This document shows, piece by piece, positions 1 to 58,067 of a DNA stretch of 64,000 bases. The position numbers and the translations under genes are program-made. The notes beneath the pieces were generated by a model. That model did no database searches, was not told where the DNA came from, and saw nothing but the letters and a program-made list of their open reading frames with translations. The stretch comes from a virus, in the IMG/VR virus record IMGVR_UViG_3300028563_000021, positions 1-64,000 of that record; one strand, written 5' to 3'. The stretch's first letter is position 1; every line of letters starts with the position of its first letter.

Positions 1-2191
1 GCTCGCGCTTTGGAAATTTTCGCGTGTTCAAAGTCTTTTTTGCTTGTGCTAACCGAGTGAATTCACATTCAAGGTAAATGATCTTGTTGTACACGGACAA
101 GCCATTTTCCTTGAAAAATAATTCATGCTCGGACTCGCAGCAATAATATGCGCCGTTCTTATCCCGACTGTCTCCAGTCATCACGACGAAAAAGCAATTG
201 TCGTTCAAATGCTCGATTGCCTTTTTGTACCCAGCGAACAAAACATCGCGGAATTGTTCGTATGTGTCGAGTGAGTTGATTTCTCCATCCGGCGATTTCC
301 CATCGTAGTCGATGTATTTCTCAACACGATAGTACGGCGGGCAGCTAAATACCAAATCAAACATGCCTGGAGGGTCAAATGTTGTGCTATCGCTTCGAAT
401 CCATTGGACGTTTGGAAACTCACTGCAAATCTTGTTGTTCGCATCAGCCTGATTCTGGCGGATTTCACTTGCCACATATTCGTATCCGCAAGCACCTGCG
501 ATGTACCCCATTTGAACGCCGCCGCCGAACGGATTGTAAATGCGATTACCATTTTTTGGCATGAAAAAACGTGCAATCACTTCGCAGGCAACCGGGTCAA
601 GCACAGAGGCATTGCCGTTGTGTGATTTTTCCTTATTAACCTTGATTTCACCGTTTTCAATCGTGCGCGTTTGAAGCACCACATTCGAAAAACCGGCCTC
701 ACCTTGCCAACATCCTTCACGCGATGCGAATGCAGGGTTAGGAACACCAACACGCTCGCCAGCCGACTCAATGCGCTCTTTCCATTCACCCTTTAAGCGC
801 AACCAATCGCCCTTGATCGAACTCCAGACGTTGCACATGGTAATGTGTGCAAGCAGTTTCATGCGAACGTCTGCAAGCTCTCCATGAACCATATAATGGA
901 ACCCTGACATCTTCAAGTAGGTGACGAAGCCGACACTCTCAAATAGCGCCGGGGTTTCGAACTTGCTTTTAGGGTCTGTGGTGATAACCGCAGGATATTT
1001 GTTTTTGTTCTGTGCGATGACTTCGCGCACCATTTGCGCGTACAGCTCCTTTGTATATTTGATCGGCTCAATAACCGATTGCAACAAGCAAAATTCACGC
1101 GCCACGTCATTGTTCTGGAATGTAAAAAAGCCGCTGAATTCGTCATTAATTTTTAGTATGATAGCCGAATGAATTTGCATGTTTTTCCGCGCCGCACGCT
1201 TGGCAATTCCGTCTTCAATAGCGAGTCTCGATACATCCTCTTCGTATCCAGACCCGATGACAGTCGGCACATAAACCCATTCCACCTCTTCATGAAACAG
1301 TGCGGTTTGATCCTGATATGTTGCAATATTCATGTTTTCTTCTTTCGTTAGTTTTAGCCGATTATCGGCACCACATTGATCCGGGCATGCGTTGCATGTT
1401 CCGAGATATACATTACGGTTGTGCAATGATACTAATTTTCCGCCTCCTATTGCTTCGTCCATTCTTGTTAAAATAATGTCGCCGCTGATGACGCGCGGAT
1501 TTGATTTCGTTGCTCGCAATGGATTGTCAATAATCGGCGTCAAGGTCAACAAATAATCCTGTCGATTCTTCGCTTGTTGCGCCCATTCCGAATCGCCATA
1601 CTGACAGGTAACAACGCGAGCAACACTTTTTATTCCAGCCTCTCTAATTCGTTCAATCTGTCGAACTCTGAACTTCGTTTGAGCGTCTGTATCAAGCCCA
1701 CTAACAGAGGTATTTATCACAGCGGAAAGATTCTTTAATCGGATCAATTGGTGGTTAGATAATGGTATCCAATGCTTGGTAATAATCACTGGAATTTTTC
1801 CTGTATCTTTCAACGCCTCAATAACTGATATTGTATTTTCCCAATCGTGACACGGATCGCCAGCGGTTCCAATTCGATACCATCCAGCATAATAATCTTT
1901 CACTGCGAAGAAAATTGTTTTCACATCCCATGGCATGAGCTTTCGAGATACCGATGTTGCAAAATCAATGCCGTATCTGCTTGCTGTCTTTAGCGCATAG
2001 CATTCGCCGTAACAGCCGCCTTCAGGTCTGGCAAGTATGCCTAGCGTACAACCTTTGACAGTATCGACATCAAGAACACCCTTTTGATTCTCTGAAACCG
2101 TGAGCACCGGCTTGTATTTTCTTGCTCCGATAAATTCTTCCGCATCATCGAATAATGAATTCTGAATGCGCTTGAATATTACCGAAGTCAT
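1..2191 (-). CDS. Radical SAM-like / acetyltransferase-like / DNA methyltransferase fusion (partial, C-terminus beyond window)
   Basis: One uninterrupted frame of 730 codons starts at ATG 2191 (overlapping the stop of the upstream regulator as ATGA) and leaves the window without a stop. Residues 1-275 look like a radical SAM-type fold: cysteines at 48, 60 and 64 (CX11CX3C, last pair in GGCYGECYA), a GDP motif near 111, and the stretch INTSVSGLD. A second cysteine cluster, TCNACPDQC (266, 269, 273), follows. Residues about 290-436 resemble a GNAT/Mom-like acyltransferase, ending in ALFESVGF. Residues about 470-730 are an amino-methyltransferase: FGGG (555-558) as the SAM-binding motif and SCPPYY (615-620) as the catalytic motif. 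Inferred role: hypermodification of phage DNA. The methyltransferase call is strong, the radical SAM call good, the GNAT call tentative. Confidence 0.8.
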   Translation of the reverse strand, partial: MTSVIFKRIQNSLFDDAEEFIGARKYKPVLTVSENQKGVLDVDTVKGCTLGILARPEGGCYGECYALKTASRYGIDFATSVSRKLMPWDVKTIFFAVKDYYAGWYRIGTAGDPCHDWENTISVIEALKDTGKIPVIITKHWIPLSNHQLIRLKNLSAVINTSVSGLDTDAQTKFRVRQIERIREAGIKSVARVVTCQYGDSEWAQQAKNRQDYLLTLTPIIDNPLRATKSNPRVISGDIILTRMDEAIGGGKLVSLHNRNVYLGTCNACPDQCGADNRLKLTKEENMNIATYQDQTALFHEEVEWVYVPTVIGSGYEEDVSRLAIEDGIAKRAARKNMQIHSAIILKINDEFSGFFTFQNNDVAREFCLLQSVIEPIKYTKELYAQMVREVIAQNKNKYPAVITTDPKSKFETPALFESVGFVTYLKMSGFHYMVHGELADVRMKLLAHITMCNVWSSIKGDWLRLKGEWKERIESAGERVGVPNPAFASREGCWQGEAGFSNVVLQTRTIENGEIKVNKEKSHNGNASVLDPVACEVIARFFMPKNGNRIYNPFGGGVQMGYIAGACGYEYVASEIRQNQADANNKICSEFPNVQWIRSDSTTFDPPGMFDLVFSCPPYYRVEKYIDYDGKSPDGEINSLDTYEQFRDVLFAGYKKAIEHLNDNCFFVVMTGDSRDKNGAYYCCESEHELFFKENGLSVYNKIIYLECEFTRLAQAKKTLNTRKFPKRE

Positions 2192-2361
2192 TTTGAATCC
2201 GCCTTAAGTCGATTTTCGGTGATCGTTTGGATCGCCAATTGCGACCAATGCGGGATATGCTTTGCAGCAAGCCACTGCCGAATACAAGGTACGGTTTTCC
2301 CGAGCGCGTGTGCGGCTTCCTTGTCGCTTCCGAAATGCTTTATTAAATCTTTTGGCGTCAT
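2188..2361 (-). CDS. Cro-like helix-turn-helix regulator
   Basis: A 57-residue protein starting MTPKDLIKHFGSDKEAA, with a compact helix-turn-helix (DKEAAHALGKTVPCIRQWL) typical of Cro/YdaS-type phage repressors. ATG 2361 is preferred over an upstream in-frame ATG (2397) because AGGAGGGC lies directly before it. Its stop overlaps the start of the large fusion gene, so the two are translationally coupled. Probably represses its own divergent promoter region (2384-2413). Confidence 0.75.
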   Translation of the reverse strand: MTPKDLIKHFGSDKEAAHALGKTVPCIRQWLAAKHIPHWSQLAIQTITENRLKADSK

Positions 2362-2383
2362 ATTGCCCTCCTGTTGGTTTCCG

Positions 2384-2413
2384 GTATTATTGCACAAGGC
2401 AGAGTAAATGCAA
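2384..2413 (-). promoter_or_regulatory. Sigma70-like promoter for the leftward regulator/fusion operon
   Basis: On the minus strand TTGCAT (2413-2408), an 18-base spacer and TAATAC (2389-2384) precede the Cro-like gene. The sequence TATTGCACA in the spacer resembles a half-site at the repressor promoter near 8970. Confidence 0.5.
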
Positions 2414-2829: not shown

Positions 2830-3028
2830 TTGGCCATCACCCAGCCACAATTAGATCAAGCGCAATGTGTCTCTGACGTGCCCTCGAACGTGGCTGGCCT
2901 GATGCAGTATTACAAAAAGACCGCGAGAAGGATTGGTACATTCCTACGCCGCCATGCCCCCCCCGGGAATTGATCATATTTCGTGGGACGAGGATTGCTA
3001 TCAAGCGCGCAAACAACTCAATCGATAG
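2830..3028 (+). pseudogene. Small gene split by a C8 tract
   Basis: A TTG start at 2830 (directly after the previous stop, with GGGAG upstream) opens a frame that ends at TGA 2971 just after eight C residues (2957-2964). Removing one C joins it to a sensible downstream frame reading [20 protein letters not shown] to TAG 3028. Either a sequencing miscount, a recent mutation, or slippage; the joined product would be about 65 residues of unknown function. Confidence 0.4.
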
Positions 3029-3038
3029 GAGAGATAAA

Positions 3039-3692
3039 ATGAAAATTGAAATTAAAAATAGGTTTAATAATTCTGTGCTTTTCTCGCATGACTGCGAAGA
3101 AAATACTTTGAAAATAACTTTATTGATGGCTCTCAAAGCTTCGGCCGACCTGCGTAGGGCCGACCTGCGCGAGGCCAATCTGGGCGGGGTCGACCTGGGC
3201 GGGGCCGATCTGGGCGGGGCCAATCTGCGCGGGGCCAATCTGGGCGGGGCCGACCTGGGCGGGGCCGACCTGGGCGGGGCCGACCTGCGTAGGGCCGACC
3301 TGCGCGAGGCCAATCTGGGCGGGGCCGACCTGGGCGGGGCCAATCTGCGCGGGGCCAATCTGCGCGGGGCCGACCTGGGCGGGGCCAATCTGGGCGGGGC
3401 CGACCTGCGCGGGGCCAATCTGGGCGGGGCCGATCTGGGCGATTTAAAGCTTGTTGGTGGCCGCCCCTTCATGCAAATCGGGCCAATCGGGTCTCGCAAT
3501 GATTATTTGACCGCATTCATCACCGATAAGGGCGTTCATGTCCAAGCCGGTTGTTTTTTTGGCTCACGCGATCAATTTGAATTGAAAGTTGCTGAATCTC
3601 ACGGCAGCAATGAGCATGGGAAAGAATACCGCGCCGCCCTCGTATTGATCGACGCTCACGCTGAAATTTGGACGCCGAAAGAGCCTGCGTGA
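3039..3692 (+). CDS. Pentapeptide-repeat protein
   Basis: 217 residues from ATG 3039, with TAGGAGAG just upstream. After about 38 residues a run of more than 20 pentapeptide repeats ([15 protein letters not shown]) occupies residues 39-150 and should form a right-handed quadrilateral beta-helix. A unique C-terminal domain of about 65 residues ([20 protein letters not shown]) follows. Known relatives include DNA-mimicking gyrase-protection proteins (Qnr, MfpA) but most have no assigned role. At DNA level the repeats are near-identical 15-bp units, so repeat number can change by recombination. Confidence 0.9.
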
Positions 3693-10760: not shown

Positions 10761-11558
10761 ATGGGCAATGAATTATCAACTTTTACCCTTGAGCCGCGCA
10801 GTTTGGCCGAGGCAATGGAATACGCCAAAATCATCGCGTCCAGCGACATGGTGCCGAAGGATTATATCAACAAGCCCGGTAACGTTCTCGTTGCTGTGCA
10901 GACTGGCGCAGAGCTTGGACTGAAGCCTATGCAGTCTCTTCAGGGTATCGCGGTAATCAATGGCCGTCCGACGATCTGGGGCGATGCCCAATGGGCACTC
11001 GTGGCCGGTCATCCTGACTTCGAATATTCGAAAGATGACTTGACCGACACAAAGGCGACGGTATGGCTCAAACGTCGCAACCAGCCAGAAATAATGCGTT
11101 CGTTTTCAATTGATGACGCGAAAAAGGCCGGGCTTGCAGGAAAGTCTGGGCCGTGGTCAACAAATCCAAAACGCATGATGCACATGCGCGCTCGTGCGTT
11201 CGCTTCGCGTGACCTGTTCCCTGATGCACTCAAAGGCATTAAGTCAGTCGAGGAAGTTCGCGACTACGGGCCAGAATGTCAAACCGAAATCGATATCACG
11301 CCAAAGTCCGAAACAAAAGCGGAAATCAAAGGCCCGGAATTTCTGACCAGCGAAAAATTTGAAGCCAACAAAGAAGCATGGCGCAAGTTGATCGACACGA
11401 AGAAAAAAACGGTCGATACGCTGATTGCGTTCCTTGATTCGAAAGCGCCGCTGACTGAGTCGCAGAAATCTGAAATCAAATCATGGGAAGTAATGCCAGT
11501 GCAGACAGAGGTCGTTGATGACTTCAATGCCGGCCTTGATTCCTACGTTCCAGAATAG
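10761..11558 (+). CDS. RecT-family single-strand annealing protein
   Basis: About 265 residues. Conserved RecT features: LMVAVQTG-like segment NVLVAVQTGAELGLKPMQSL, the block AVINGRPTIWGDAQWALV, and GPWSTNPKRMMHMRARAFA. Such proteins bind single-stranded DNA and anneal complementary strands with a partner exonuclease, here the next gene. ATG 10761 is favoured by GGAG six bases upstream; ATG 10749 would add four residues. Confidence 0.88.
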   Translation: MGNELSTFTLEPRSLAEAMEYAKIIASSDMVPKDYINKPGNVLVAVQTGAELGLKPMQSLQGIAVINGRPTIWGDAQWALVAGHPDFEYSKDDLTDTKATVWLKRRNQPEIMRSFSIDDAKKAGLAGKSGPWSTNPKRMMHMRARAFASRDLFPDALKGIKSVEEVRDYGPECQTEIDITPKSETKAEIKGPEFLTSEKFEANKEAWRKLIDTKKKTVDTLIAFLDSKAPLTESQKSEIKSWEVMPVQTEVVDDFNAGLDSYVPE

Positions 11559-11571
11559 GGAGGAAAATATC

Positions 11572-13377
11572 ATGCAAGTTATACCAGTATCGCAGGGATC
11601 AAGCGAGTGGCTAGCTGTTCGCGCAACGCATCTGTGTGCCAGTGAAGCGGCGGCAATGCTCGGTTTCGACAAGGCGACGACGCGGACGCAATTGCTTCAA
11701 TTGAAGCACACCGGACTCGGCAAAGAGTTCTCCGAGTGGGTTCAAACCAATCTGCTTGATAAGGGCCACGAAATAGAAGCGGCAACGCGCCCAATCGGAG
11801 AGGAAATAATAGGGGAAGAGCTTTACCCGTGCATCGGAACTATTGAGGTTGACGGCCTTCGTTTGCTCGCCAGCTTCGACGGCATGACGATGTGCGAAGA
11901 CGTTGTTTGGGAATGCAAAAGCCGCAATGCTTCGTTGATAGCGGCAATGGCGGACGGCGATTTGCCGGATACGCATTGGCCGCAGGTCGAGCAGCAATTA
12001 ATGATTAGCAACGCGGATAAAGCGCTCTTCACTTGCGGCGATGGCACAGCGGAGCACACTGATCACCTATGGTATCAGTCGCGTCCAGAGCGTCGCGCAA
12101 AGATCGTCGCAGGGTGGCATCAATTTGCCAAGGATTTGGCAAATTACAAGCAGGTCGAAATCGTTGAAAAGCCAAAGGCTGAAGCGATCATGCAACTGCC
12201 TGCGGTGGTAATCAATGTGCACGGTGAACTCGCGCTTTGCAACCTTGGAGACGTCACGCCAAAATTTGACGCTTTTTTGTCCGGCGCAAATATTGATCTG
12301 AAGACTGACGACGATTTTGCAAACGGCGAAGCAACGGCAAGATTCAGTCGCTCCACTGCGAAGACGCTCAAGCTCAAGGCTAAAGAGGTAATTGGTCAAA
12401 TCGCAACCGTAAGCGAGGCCGTCTGTACCTTGGAACTGTATGCGGATAAGTTTGATGCGCTCGGCCTGAAGCTCGAAAAAGCTGTGACGGGCCAGAAAGA
12501 GACCATCAAGACCAACATATTGAACGCGGCAAAATTGGCATTCACTGAACACGTCGCGAGCCTGGAAGCGGAAATCAAACCAATCCGTTTAGTGCACGCT
12601 CAACCGGATTTCGTTGGCGCGATGAAAAACAAGCGCACGCTGGCCAGCCTGCACGATGCCGTCGATACTGAGCTGGCCAATGCCAAGATCAACACCGACG
12701 CTATCGCTAAGGGCGTTAGAACGCGGATGGGCTGGTGTAAGACGAATGCCGAAGGCTTTGGCTTCTTGTTTGCCGATCTGCAAAGCATCATCTACAAGGC
12801 CGATGACGACTTCCATCTGATTGTGACGACTCGCGTCGATGCGCACAAAAAGGCGGAAACCGACAAGATCGAGGCAGAGCGCGCGAAGATTCGGGCCGAC
12901 GAGGAAGCCAAGGCGACCGCCAAAGCTGCAGAGGACACCCGCCGTCAAGTGGCCGAAGCGCAGGCCAAGGCGGAGGCAGAAGCAAAGGAAAAGGCTGACG
13001 CTGATGCGAAGGTTTTGCGGGAAGCGGAGCAAGCGCACGCAGCCGCACCAGTCCAGGCACCAGCGCAAGAAAGTATTGCTCCTGCAATAGCTGCCACGCC
13101 TCCGCCTGTCCGCGCTCCGGAATCGTATCAGTTCCCGGCGCGGTCAACGGAATCTAGCCACACATCAGCCGAATCTTCGGTATTGGTCAACCTCGGCAGC
13201 ATCAACGCCGCCCTTGGCTTCACGGTGACGGCTGACTTTCTTGGGCGTCTTGGCTTTGACGCCGTACAACAAAAGAACGCGAAATTGTATCGCGACTCTG
13301 ATTTTCAACGAATCTGTGCCGCGATCGTGCGTCACGTTCAAATCGCTGCAGCTACGCCATTGAAGTCCGCAGCTTAA
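11572..13377 (+). CDS. YqaJ-like recombination exonuclease with C-terminal extension
   Basis: 601 residues from ATG 11572, with GGGAGG upstream. Residues 1-210 are a YqaJ/lambda-exonuclease-type nuclease: SSEWLAVRATHLCASEAAAM at the N-terminus, catalytic D103 (SFDG) and ECK (114-116). Residues 260-430 resemble DUF1351, residues 430-520 are a highly charged coiled coil rich in KAEAE, and the last 70 form a small globular region. It should resect double-stranded ends to load the RecT-like protein. The fused tail makes it more than twice the length of a plain YqaJ enzyme. Confidence 0.85.
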   Translation: MQVIPVSQGSSEWLAVRATHLCASEAAAMLGFDKATTRTQLLQLKHTGLGKEFSEWVQTNLLDKGHEIEAATRPIGEEIIGEELYPCIGTIEVDGLRLLASFDGMTMCEDVVWECKSRNASLIAAMADGDLPDTHWPQVEQQLMISNADKALFTCGDGTAEHTDHLWYQSRPERRAKIVAGWHQFAKDLANYKQVEIVEKPKAEAIMQLPAVVINVHGELALCNLGDVTPKFDAFLSGANIDLKTDDDFANGEATARFSRSTAKTLKLKAKEVIGQIATVSEAVCTLELYADKFDALGLKLEKAVTGQKETIKTNILNAAKLAFTEHVASLEAEIKPIRLVHAQPDFVGAMKNKRTLASLHDAVDTELANAKINTDAIAKGVRTRMGWCKTNAEGFGFLFADLQSIIYKADDDFHLIVTTRVDAHKKAETDKIEAERAKIRADEEAKATAKAAEDTRRQVAEAQAKAEAEAKEKADADAKVLREAEQAHAAAPVQAPAQESIAPAIAATPPPVRAPESYQFPARSTESSHTSAESSVLVNLGSINAALGFTVTADFLGRLGFDAVQQKNAKLYRDSDFQRICAAIVRHVQIAAATPLKSAA

Positions 13378-17468: not shown

Positions 17469-18263
17469 TCAGCCTCCAATGGCAATATTTACGGCAGCGT
17501 AGCCACGGTTAAACAACTCAAGGCGATCAGTGAAGTGCATTCTGGTATTTAGCATCCCGAAACCAGTAACATTGACCCGCGCAATCTTGGCATGCTCCAA
17601 CAGGCCGATGCGCTCCTGTGCGGCCTCGCTGGCGTTCAGTGTTACCTCAATGATACGGGATGCTATGGACAACGCTGATCGCGTCTTGATCGGCCATGAT
17701 TCCATGGTGCGAGTCAGTTCGATGCCAAGTTTCAGGTCGCAATCTTCCGGCAAATCATCCATGTCGATATTCGAACTTGTCCCGCCGTCACTTGCAAAAA
17801 TGCCATCGTATTGAACCGGCGCGTAAATGAACGGAATGGCAGCGCTGGCGCGCGCGCCGAGAGCAAGCGTCATGTTGGGCGTCGTATGGCGGTTCAGTAG
17901 CTTCTTGCTGCCGCTAACGCTATCTGTGACAACCATACTGATATCTTGCTCGACATCTGCGAAGGTCTTGCTGCCGGTCATCTTTGTCAGCCACTTCAGC
18001 AGGTTATTGCCATTGCAGTAGGACGCCTGAGTGATCGGCGACAACCACGAAAAATTGAGGAACGACGAGAAATCGTCGTTAAGCGCCATCTGCCGCATGT
18101 CGTCAATGTGCATGCCGGAAGCGTAGATAGCTGACACGACGCTGCCGCCGCTGGTGCTGTCAATCGGGCCAATCGTATGCCCCGCGTCAAGGAGCGCCGA
18201 CAAGCCGCCGACATGCACGGCGGCTAGATAGCCCGATCCTGACATCGCGACGGCGATTTTCAT
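17469..18263 (-). CDS. Patatin-like phospholipase
   Basis: 264 residues. Hallmarks of the patatin fold: glycine-rich oxyanion loop near the N-terminus (VAMSGSGYLAAVHVGG), nucleophile motif STSGGS (residues 36-41, S38) and the catalytic-dyad aspartate in SDGGTSSNID. These enzymes cut acyl groups from phospholipids. No signal peptide. It is the last gene of the late operon, three bases after a lysis-region gene, suggesting a role at host lysis or in membrane attack. Confidence 0.8.
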   Translation of the reverse strand: MKIAVAMSGSGYLAAVHVGGLSALLDAGHTIGPIDSTSGGSVVSAIYASGMHIDDMRQMALNDDFSSFLNFSWLSPITQASYCNGNNLLKWLTKMTGSKTFADVEQDISMVVTDSVSGSKKLLNRHTTPNMTLALGARASAAIPFIYAPVQYDGIFASDGGTSSNIDMDDLPEDCDLKLGIELTRTMESWPIKTRSALSIASRIIEVTLNASEAAQERIGLLEHAKIARVNVTGFGMLNTRMHFTDRLELFNRGYAAVNIAIGG

Positions 18264-42329: not shown

Positions 42330-44180
42330 TTAACGGCTCAAGCGGTTCGAGTCAGGGAAGCACTCGGTTACATCGCCGGATAACGCCGCATCGTTCGCCA
42401 CTACTTGCAAAGTGGCTTTCTGTGGCTTGGGTAAGTTGGTGAGAATTGATTTATAGGCATCGGAATGCATGCCCTTGGTATCGATGCCCTTGATCGTCAA
42501 GGCGGCTTTATAGACCGCTTCTGCGCTGTCGCAAGCGATGGCAATTTCACCGACAATCGGCTTGACGAATTTCAGCGCATCGGCGATGCCGTTCATGCGA
42601 TCGATTGTCTTTTGCTCGGCTTCTTTGGCGGCTTTGTCGCACGCCAATTTGATTGCCTTGTCCATTGCGGCCTTGTCCATTTTTTCCTCGTCGTCGTCAG
42701 CCGCAGCGGGCTTTTTGTTTTCCTGATTATTGGGGTTCGCATTCGCGGCGTTAGCGGTTTGCGCTGGCTCGTCGGCGGCGGTCGGTACGGCCACTGGTTT
42801 TGCCTTCAGCATGGCCTCGATTTCTGCGAGGTCTTCATCGCTAATCTTGCCGCGCAACTTGTCCATGATTCCAGCCATCTTTGGGTCAGGCTCGTCCTGA
42901 GCGACGTTGTCATCGTCTGGCTCGGCGCTGTCCAACTTGTCCAGCAATTTAACGATGTCGGCGAGATCGGTATCTTTCGCCAACAACGGCTTGATGGCCG
43001 CTACGATGCCGGGCTTCTTTTCAAGCCAGTTCTTGCGCTTGACGCCAGCGAGAATGGTATCGAGATTCGGCATTTGCGAATCCGTTGCCATCATTGGCTT
43101 CAGGACAGCCAACAAGGCTCCCTTGGCCATCACTGCTTTTTTGCTTAGGGATTTACCCATGTTGATTGCTCCATTGAGGTTGATTGAAACTACCTTTACA
43201 TTCGGCCCGGCCGAATCTCCTACTATAACGTCTGCTCCGCATCTCCCTTTTTCTACCAATGCGACGTGATTCGCCCGGATATTTCGCATGATTCCGTCGT
43301 ATTGAACGCCTTCATAGGTTCCCGGCGTCATGTCAGCGTTGTAGTAATAGGCGCATGAAATCTCTTGTTGCGCGCCGGTCTCAACGCCTTTGATTGCGTC
43401 CTGCGTCCAAATGACCAGGGAATTTTTCAGGTACGGGTGTTCGAAAACTGCGTCCGTCCCGGTTGCGCCGACGGTCGCCTTCGGCTGATGCGATTGCGCA
43501 TTGACCGGGATGTGCTCATTGAGCAATTGCACGTTGTTCCATGTCGGCACGGATTTCGCCAGCTCATCAGGATCGCGCAGTAGCATGTAAATGCGTTTCG
43601 GATCAAGTCCAAGCGCCTGCGCCTCAGGGATTTCCTCACCATAGTACGGGCAGACCATAGCTTTACTAATTGGCGTCAATTCCACGCGCATCCGGCCATC
43701 TTGATCGACGCTGCGCACTGATTGCCTGTCGAATGCCAGCGCATCCTTTGCTATCTGGCAGTCCTGCGCTGGCTTCTTGCCAAGCATCGTATCGACTACT
43801 TGGCGCACGCCTGGGTGCAGCGGCTCCGGCGGATTCTCAAGCGTCGCCCACTTGAACGCCGTATGCTCGGATTTATCCAACTTCGGCGTGAACTTGTGCA
43901 TGATTCGCATCTTGAACGTCAGGAAATCGACTTCTTTGCCGCTGTCGTCTTTGCTGGATGTGTCGGCTATTTTTTCGAGTTGGCCGTATGGAAGAGCGCC
44001 GATTTCCTCGCGAGTCTCGCGCTTGGCCGTTTGCTCTGGAGTTTCGCCATCGTCGGCGCGGCCTCCTGGCAAATCCCATTCTCCTGGATGATTGGACGAT
44101 GGCGAACGCAGCAGAAACAGGCACTCATCTTGCGGCGTGATCAATGCAATGCCAGCGCCCTTAATCTTTTCGTCTGCCAC
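42330..44180 (-). CDS. NUDIX hydrolase - DUF2213 prohead protease - scaffold fusion
   Basis: 616 residues. Residues 1-135 are a NUDIX domain with an intact box at 40-62 ([20 protein letters not shown] then IGA). Residues 145-330 match DUF2213-type capsid maturation proteases ([20 protein letters not shown] ... [20 protein letters not shown]). The remainder is a charged helical scaffold. Protease and scaffold would assemble and mature the procapsid; an active NUDIX domain fused to them is unusual and would be cut off or packaged. Confidence 0.85.
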
Positions 44181-56329: not shown

Positions 56330-57716
56330 TTAAAGTTTGTCTACTTCGTTGTCATTCAAAGATTCCGGCTCGCCGAGCAAGCAGGACAAGTGCTGTAGCA
56401 GCTTGGAGCGGTACGCAGCCGTTACCAAGGGCGCGGAGTTGGGCCGAGCGATTGTCGAAGTCCAATGTATCGGCAAGCCCATGAGATTCTGCACAAAGTA
56501 TGGATTGGGTCTCATCGCTGATTGCCGGAGCGAGCCAGGGGAATCGATCGATGATTCCGAACCATCTGGTGTCGGCTGGGCCAGGGGCGAATAAAGGATG
56601 AATGCCGGTAAGCTCGGCCCCGACGGTCGATTGAAATGCTCCATCGTTTTTACCCCCCCCCACCTCTGATCTGTAGTCCCGTGCCGCTGGTGTCGACCAT
56701 TGGTACACAGTTTGTCGCAGCGACGGTGTATTGCGATTCATCTCTGAAGCACACACCCCGCGATTCATTTCCGATGCTTTTGGCGTAGGCCAATTCTCCA
56801 CATCCAGAATCAATGCCCTGTTGCGCTCGCCCTGTCCGCTGCGCTCCAATGCCGTCGGCATTATCCAGTGTGTCACCTGTTTCGCAAACTCGCCGCCCGC
56901 GCCAGCCTTCCCGGTTTCCGCTTCCATCCCCGACATTCCGTGCGGTGTCAGCCAGGTATTCGCTTGTGCCTTCAGCTTCGGCTCGCCGCGTGAGTTCCGC
57001 CCGCTGCCGCTCGCTTCCTCGTCCTTCGGCGTCTGCCAAAGCATTGCTTTCGCTTGATTTCCAAGTCCAGCTACTTGGCTTTTCCGATTGCTTCCTGTGT
57101 TCGGCGCTTCCGGCATCGAATCCGGCGTATCCCATTTTCCATGCGAGACAAAACCATCTTGCGCGACCATGCGAGGCACCCACGTCGGACGCAGAAATAA
57201 CGATCCATTCCGAATTCCACCCGAGGTCGGCCAATTCTCCCATGACTCTGGCGGCCGCGCGCTCGTCAAGTTCGCCTTCGGCTTCGCCCACAACGGAGGC
57301 GGTGGCAGTAGCGATGCCAGCGACGTTCTCCAAAAGGATGAATCGCGCACCGCTATCGGTTGCGATTTGAATGGCGTCGAAAACGAGTCCGCTTCGCTTG
57401 CCGTCAAGTCCTTCTCTGCGACCGGCAATAGATAGGTCCTGACATGGTGTTCCGGCAATGACGCAATCCACCATTCCGCGAAATTGCTTGGCTGGCAGTT
57501 CTCTAAAATCGCCGAACCAGATAGGCGCCGCATCCAGGCTTCCCTCTTCCATGCGCGCAGCCAAGACGCTGACAGGGTAAGCTTCCCGTTCAGCGTAGAG
57601 GATCGTTCGGCTTCGGATGCCCATGAACTCAAGTCCGGCAGAAGCTCCGCAATCGAACATTCCGACGCCTGCGCATAGGCTGATAATATTGAAGGTGAAA
57701 CTATCCACATTTTCAA
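56330..57716 (-). CDS. Overprinted protein overlapping the cytosine methyltransferase
   Basis: A second frame over the methyltransferase stays open for about 355 codons from ATG 57716 (MKMWIVSPSILSAYAQASEC). It has motifs repeated along its length, WPTPKASE, STPAARDYRSE and ENWPTSGGIRNGSLF, typical of phage proteins that overlap Dcm-like genes. As read it crosses the G9 tract into the methyltransferase's last exon-like segment. If one G is removed it instead reads PNPYFVQNLMGLPIHWT to TAA 56330, the family's usual ending. Role unknown. Confidence 0.65.
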
Positions 57717-57738
57717 GTTCCTTGAACTTATTTTTCAT
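56352..57738 (-). CDS. C5-cytosine DNA methyltransferase, frame broken at a G9 tract
   Basis: From ATG 57738. Motif I SLCAGVGM (20-27), IV TPCQ with catalytic C99, VI ENV (137-139), VIII GRARWF (191-196). As read the frame stops at TAA 56650, right after nine G (56653-56661 as C on plus). With eight G it continues through TRWFGIIDRFPWLAPAISDE to motif X RALGNGCVPLQAA and ends at 56352, about 460 residues. Probably protects phage DNA from restriction. Without the join the product lacks motifs IX-X and should be inactive. Confidence 0.8.
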
Positions 57739-58067
57739 TTGGTAATCAAAACATCTATGCCCAGCACAGTTTTCATCAAATGTTGCTTGATGCGAAACGC
57801 CTGCGTCATCACACCCTTGCAGTCCTCGACGATCCGTGCGCCCGACTTGGAATCCTGATAAACGAAGTCGGCACGATAAATCAATGCTCGCTTCGCCTTG
57901 CCGCCGACGATTGCGCCGGGCGCGAGAATGAATGAAGCTTGACGCGACAAATCCGTGATGTGACCGGCGCGCGCCAAAATCTGCAATTCCTGATACCGGC
58001 GGCATTCGGCTTTCGAATCGAATGTCATGCCGTCAAGGGTGACTTTCTTGTTGCGGTACTTGGTCAT
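57735..58067 (-). CDS. DUF1064-like nuclease-fold protein
   Basis: 110 residues. TFDSKAECRRYQELQILARA at the N-terminus and RADFVYQDSKSGARIVEDCK match DUF1064, a phage family with a PD-(D/E)XK/VRR-type nuclease fold (E near AEC, D in ADF, E-x-K in EDCK). Stop overlaps the methyltransferase start. Confidence 0.8.
   Translation of the reverse strand: MTKYRNKKVTLDGMTFDSKAECRRYQELQILARAGHITDLSRQASFILAPGAIVGGKAKRALIYRADFVYQDSKSGARIVEDCKGVMTQAFRIKQHLMKTVLGIDVLITK

Follow-up and report, generated by a model that had tools for sequence, protein, structure and literature searches.

A radical-SAM/GNAT/methyltransferase fusion protein as a candidate DNA-base hypermodification enzyme of uncultured phages

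The viral record comprises 64,872 bp, and the window, the whole stretch of DNA analysed here, covers 64,000 nucleotides of it. Window 1-126 recurs as record 64745-64870, and with this terminal direct repeat of 126 bases the genome can be read as a circle of about 64,744 bases. The fusion gene is located on the minus strand at the left end of the window (1..2191, frame 2..2191). It starts with an ATG at 2191, has 730 codons within the window and is open past the left end. Read across the terminal-repeat junction of the record, the full protein has 754 amino acids, with the stop at record 64671; the C-terminal 24 codons fall outside the window. A gene for a P22-Cro-like regulator (2188-2397, minus strand; PF14549, E 1.1e-11) lies upstream and overlaps the fusion gene at its start codon (ATGA), so both genes are probably co-translated. 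The first-pass annotation had described a single frame with six cysteines, an FGGG and an SCPPYY motif. This frame is real, and all of these features are conserved in relatives; the strand, the 24 codons beyond the window and the ATGA overlap had escaped that annotation. Proteins 57-86% identical over most of the length occur on at least 80 viral contigs, which argues against a chance reading frame.

The same genome carries a separate gene for a C5-cytosine DNA methyltransferase (56650-58005, minus strand; PF00145, E 3.9e-26). A profile match placed a YqaJ-type recombinase domain at 11515-13377, and RecT-like, terminase and DnaB-like genes were recognised by eye. The terminase shares about 66% identity with those of Klebsiella prophages. 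An IS1595-type (ISXO2-like) transposase with a zinc ribbon is located inside the phage genome (5482-6423, plus strand). Further genes code for a patatin-like phospholipase (17469-18263, minus strand; PF01734, E 3e-24) and, by domain match, for a NUDIX domain fused to DUF2213 (42330-44180, minus strand), a pairing that is, to our knowledge, uncommon. The open-frame translation of 2970-3692 (plus strand) is rich in pentapeptide-type ADLxxAxL repeats; the protein possibly has a DNA-mimic fold.

The N-terminal part of the fusion protein, residues 1-275 (1367..2191, minus strand), is predicted to form a domain of the radical-SAM type, built on a six-strand (beta/alpha) core. The AlphaFold model of residues 1-292 had a mean pLDDT of 89.8. 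Strands at residues 45-47, 104-107, 133-138, 158-164, 188-195 and 220-225 alternate with helices, giving the six successive strand-helix units of the partial (beta/alpha)6 barrel of radical-SAM enzymes. In a Foldseek comparison with the PDB, the pyruvate formate-lyase activating enzyme (PFL-AE), EpeE, biotin synthase and HydE ranked first, followed by lipoyl synthase, QueE and others; nearly all of the best matches were radical-SAM enzymes. Radical-SAM proteins were also the best matches among viral structures. The TM-scores to radical-SAM structures are modest, about 0.35-0.43. The structural comparison by which the initial radical-SAM assignment was to be checked thus returned radical-SAM matches.

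Two cysteine triads mark this domain. The sequence C48-x11-C60-x3-C64-Y-A (2000..2050, minus strand) provides candidate [4Fe-4S] ligands. The three cysteines are kept in all 52 complete relatives, and the 53rd sequence is truncated before C48 and C60. While C60-x3-C64 is the second part of the motif, the distance between C48 and C60 varies from 7 to 25 residues among the relatives listed, and the resulting C-x7..25-C-x3-C differs from the canonical radical-SAM spacing C-x3-C-x2-C. The second triad, C266-x2-C269-x3-C273-G (1373..1396, minus strand), is invariant in 53 of 53 sequences and may bind an auxiliary Fe-S cluster or zinc.

Sequence profiles gave fainter signals. The radical-SAM Pfam family PF04055 had no listed match to the N-terminal domain of any of the 53 members; its cut-off was passed only by the replacement genes described below. 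DUF5131 (PF07505) was matched by two of the 53 (best E 0.00079), short of the Pfam cut-off. A profile comparison with DUF5131 gave a weak alignment over residues 41-146 (E 1e-4, the hhalign value of a single comparison), which pairs GC..CYA, GDPxHDW with MSDLFH, and ITK with LTK. An identity as a PPR protein, which emerged when the N-terminal profile was compared with PDB sequences, was rejected as an artefact of a 31-residue helical repeat. GP88 (PF17338) was discarded as a separate kin family; in the searched genomes, its matches turned out to be DUF5131-like. Altogether, a radical-SAM type of the modelled N-terminal domain is supported by the Foldseek matches to PDB and viral structures, by the weak DUF5131 profile match and by the replacement of the native partner with a PF04055 gene in relatives.

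Residues 288-457 (821..1330, minus strand) are modelled as a GNAT-fold domain (AlphaFold pLDDT 85.1). The listed Foldseek matches were GNAT enzymes throughout, with GCN5 and PCAF first (probability 1.00, TM about 0.64). A Pfam scan of the domain gave no convincing match. RAARKNMQ.HS and EFCLLQS are invariant in this region, and the acetyl-CoA motif [QR]xxGx[GA] is present in none of 45 middle-domain sequences. The first-pass annotation had seen a GNAT-like region of the Mom type: the fold stands, the likeness to Mom does not. The fusion protein had no match to the Mom family PF25680 in Pfam scans, and a single hhalign comparison with a Mom profile of three sequences gave a probability of 0.15% and an E of 0.39. 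The Mom signature SFAD..G..G..YQA and the HY pair, present in true Mom genes, are absent from the domain. Kinship with Mom was rejected on the basis of this profile comparison and the missing signature.

The C-terminal part, residues 460-730 and on to 754 beyond the window (1..814, minus strand), has the features of a SAM-dependent DNA amino-methyltransferase. It matched two phage DNA methyltransferase families, phrog_12517 (E 4.5e-35) and phrog_498 (E 1.5e-29). Motif I for SAM binding, FGGG (residues 555-558; 518..529, minus strand), occurs in the context NPFGGGVQ and is invariant in 48 sequences. Motif IV, catalytic as judged from the motif, is SCPPYY (residues 616-621; 329..346, minus strand), of which CPPYY (617-621) is invariant in the same number of sequences. 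The PF01555 score of the fusion protein was 15.5 bits, compared with a curated cut-off of 26.7; the cut-off was passed by four of five isolate-phage relatives scanned, and one was below it.

These relatives are ParB-methyltransferases of isolate phages (phiFL3A gp36, P2559S, ZRG1, AlanGrant gp1 and ZS04; phrog_498 / phrog_12517). Their methyltransferase domain is about 30% identical to that of the fusion protein and shares SCPPY or TCPPY and the motif order. An N-terminal ParB domain or a PLP insert takes the place of the radical-SAM and GNAT domains. The residues before motif I are mostly DPF or DTF in the isolate proteins and NPF in the fusion family. Family-specific changes flank motif IV in the alignment, and an insert after it, DG..P.GE.NS, is present in the fusion family and missing from the isolate proteins. 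PHROG families and this alignment agree with the initial proposal of an amino-methyltransferase C-terminus; judged by its sequence, the domain belongs to the phage DNA N6/N4-methyltransferase families.

Like the fusion, the isolate ParB-methyltransferases are paired with extra enzymes. A SAM decarboxylase is adjacent in P2559S and ZRG1. A PLP-type PALP enzyme is adjacent in AlanGrant and inserted into the ParB-methyltransferase of ZS04. The loci of these four phages (L090 2518-4363, L155 482-2123, L154 1-2275 and L156 550-2988) are candidates for further hypermodification systems, and their SAM-decarboxylase and PLP neighbours suggest that the methyltransferase scaffold has repeatedly been paired with unusual chemistry.

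Relatives of the fusion protein were found in metagenomic viruses. The search of IMG/VR found 90 loci, of which 80 were kept, with 57-86% identity across most of its length; the GNAT-methyltransferase is thereby present on at least 80 metagenomic viral contigs. In these related contigs, the gene is located amid RecT, ERF, YqaJ, SSB, DnaB and primase-helicase genes, that is, in replication and recombination modules. Genuine Mom-family (PF25680) genes occur as separate genes on some of the contigs with a GNAT-methyltransferase (L047 8430-9188, L062 10326-11084 and L049 4044-4715). The 50,697 isolate phage records contained no match covering 80% of the fusion protein. The methyltransferase end alone was matched in 25 of these records, and the GNAT and radical-SAM domains had no match among them at E up to 1. 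A plasmid search yielded one weak match, to the methyltransferase. Bacterial genomes contributed six loci; three (L085, L088 and L089) have phage-type neighbours by eye, and the remaining contigs are short. No published description of the radical-SAM/GNAT/methyltransferase architecture was found in the open-access literature.

The radical-SAM part is not always fused. Among 68 distinct sequences, 25 are fused, 10 have a radical-SAM gene upstream, 26 have it downstream and four have a different, PF04055-type gene downstream; two are without a radical-SAM gene found, and one was unassigned. An origin of the fusion as an assembly artefact was rejected, given the fused form in 25 of the 68. In one locus (L031 5944-8213), the fused protein is encoded in two overlapping frames, with the split near residue 509. 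The maximum-likelihood tree requires 18-19 changes of arrangement. The four PF04055 replacements occupy four separate positions in the tree, forced by the starred branches, and the replacement gene takes the same downstream place as the native radical-SAM gene. The profile alignment of the replacement partner with the native module is weak (E 1e-3, from a three-sequence partner profile in a single hhalign comparison). By eye, the replacement gene resembles the spore-photoproduct-lyase / DUF5131 type, with CxxxCxYC and TDxFQP motifs. The PF04055 partner gene at L078 7371-8239 is split into two overlapping frames, either by a frameshift or an assembly error, and its pieces are below the Pfam cut-off.

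With the radical-SAM domain as the sole bait, 214 loci were recovered, and 73 of the 80 kept also had the GNAT domain. Those without it were mostly at contig ends or in ParB contexts. One member of the radical-SAM family without a GNAT-methyltransferase (L225 3194-6430) lies, as judged by eye, between ParB-like genes and beside a PP-loop-like gene with an SGGKDS motif, which may encode a PAPS-reductase/DndC-like enzyme. Conversely, no radical-SAM partner gene was found in the sequence examined for two lineages with a GNAT-methyltransferase, L039/L042 and L085. In nearly all loci examined, a single protein contains both the methyltransferase and the GNAT domain, and the two together have a mean column identity of 71%. 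The occurrence of the radical-SAM part as fused, upstream or downstream and its repeated replacement at the same spot argue for one pathway with the GNAT-methyltransferase. No other evidence speaks as strongly for a joint function of the parts as this pattern of arrangements. The identities of the domains, their conservation and the coupling of the two parts in evolution were all obtained by computation.

This context is best explained by a new base hypermodification, as the first-pass annotation had proposed, and evasion of restriction would be a putative consequence. A role in DNA modification is suggested by the family to which the methyltransferase belongs and by the viral surroundings, and the coupling to a radical-SAM enzyme suggests more than methylation. 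With a probability of roughly 0.6, the fusion protein is a phage enzyme for DNA-base hypermodification, in which all three domains jointly modify phage DNA. We infer DNA as the substrate, as well as the order of steps, the product and the purpose; the substrate could instead be RNA or a nucleotide.

The reaction may start with the C-terminal SAM-dependent domain (FGGG, SCPPYY), which would bind phage DNA, take up a base and alkylate it at the exocyclic amino group (adenine N6 or cytosine N4). In the N-terminal radical-SAM domain, C48/C60/C64 would hold a [4Fe-4S] cluster and C266/C269/C273 may hold a further metal centre; this domain would generate a 5'-deoxyadenosyl radical. This radical would activate the added carbon or a small donor molecule, and the GNAT-fold domain would supply or attach a second group. 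The modified base would exceed a methylated base in size, with protection from host nucleases as the simplest purpose. That the steps follow exactly this order is doubtful, and confidence in any exact chemistry is far lower than in hypermodification in general. Tentatively, and at somewhat less than even odds, the system represents an undescribed hypermodification route in which radical-SAM and GNAT-fold domains act on a base while the methyltransferase scaffold holds it, a route widespread in uncultured phages and with a radical-SAM partner that can be swapped for an unrelated one. The modest TM-scores, the divergent cysteine spacing, the missing acetyl-CoA motif and the lineages without a partner gene count against joint hypermodification by the three domains.

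The radical-SAM and GNAT domains may instead prepare an unusual donor from SAM, and the methyltransferase may move the new group to DNA in one step. A precedent are the CmoX/CmoA phages, which put carboxy-SAM to use on DNA (PMC12783734). The SAM decarboxylases beside the methyltransferase relatives in P2559S and ZRG1 and the family-specific changes around motif IV are in line with such an altered donor. However, neither a SAM decarboxylase nor CmoA was noticed next to the fusion gene of the window, and the CmoX motif is SPPC, not SCPPY. We also know of no radical-SAM/GNAT route to a modified SAM, and an altered donor is considered unlikely.

Still less probable is a DNA counterpart of Elp3, in which radical-SAM and GNAT domains make an acyl-donor radical and form a new carbon bond on the DNA base, and the methyltransferase-type domain mainly binds and flips the base. 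The domain order, radical-SAM and then GNAT, is the same, GCN5/PCAF-type acetyltransferases are the best matches of the GNAT model, and transfer of acetate between sites is established for Elp3 (PMC13315578). However, the acetyl-CoA motif is missing throughout, Pfam and NCBIfam gave no Elp3-type match, and the methyltransferase motifs I and IV are intact. The radical-SAM part can also be detached to either side or exchanged for another family, unlike an intimate two-domain tunnel. The least probable reading, an ordinary DNA methyltransferase joined to two independent enzymes, for example, for lesion repair (radical-SAM) and acylation of a protein or host factor (GNAT), has in its favour the resemblance of the replacement gene to spore-photoproduct lyase and DUF5131 and the lineages without a radical-SAM gene, but it is at odds with the joint conservation of GNAT and methyltransferase domains and with the recurrent pairing with radical-SAM genes in one and the same position, which favours one pathway.

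Most known phage DNA hypermodifications came from cultured phages. The architecture described here lacks an 80%-coverage match in the isolate records, yet it is represented by at least 80 metagenomic viral contigs for the GNAT-methyltransferase and by 214 for the radical-SAM domain. If the DNA is modified, radical-SAM, GNAT fold and amino-methyltransferase would be a pairing of activities for which no description was found. The family would then give sequence-based access to a new modified base, and one methyltransferase scaffold would have been joined repeatedly to different donor chemistries, namely SAM decarboxylase, PLP enzyme and radical SAM.

Among known systems, DUF5131 (PF07505) and the PF04055 partner genes share the GC..CYA, MSD/GDP and TK motifs with the N-terminal domain, in the same order. 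They differ in cysteine spacing, the profile matches are weak, and the second C-x2-C-x3-C triad is absent from the DUF5131 sequences fetched. Mom of phage Mu (PF25680) is likewise a GNAT-type enzyme in phage DNA modification, but the GNAT domain of the fusion has neither profile similarity to Mom nor its signature. Elp3 produces 5-carboxymethyluridine (cm5U) in tRNA. It combines radical-SAM and GNAT in one chain, with a nucleic-acid base as the presumed target in both cases, and passes acetate from the acetyl-CoA site to the radical-SAM site (PMC13315578). The fusion family differs by the missing acetyl-CoA motif, the extra methyltransferase domain and the detachable radical-SAM part. Membership in Elp3 was rejected after no profile match in Pfam or NCBIfam, with none for TIGR01211 at E up to 1. 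The CmoX/CmoA/CmoY pathway to 5-carboxymethylcytosine likewise hypermodifies phage DNA by means of a methyltransferase and an unusual donor chemistry (PMC12783734). It differs in using a cytosine C5 methyltransferase with SPPC and a separate CmoA and ligase, and its description names no radical-SAM or GNAT enzyme. Neither Elp3 nor CmoX/CmoA is a membership match, and by analogy both indicate that a related logic exists.
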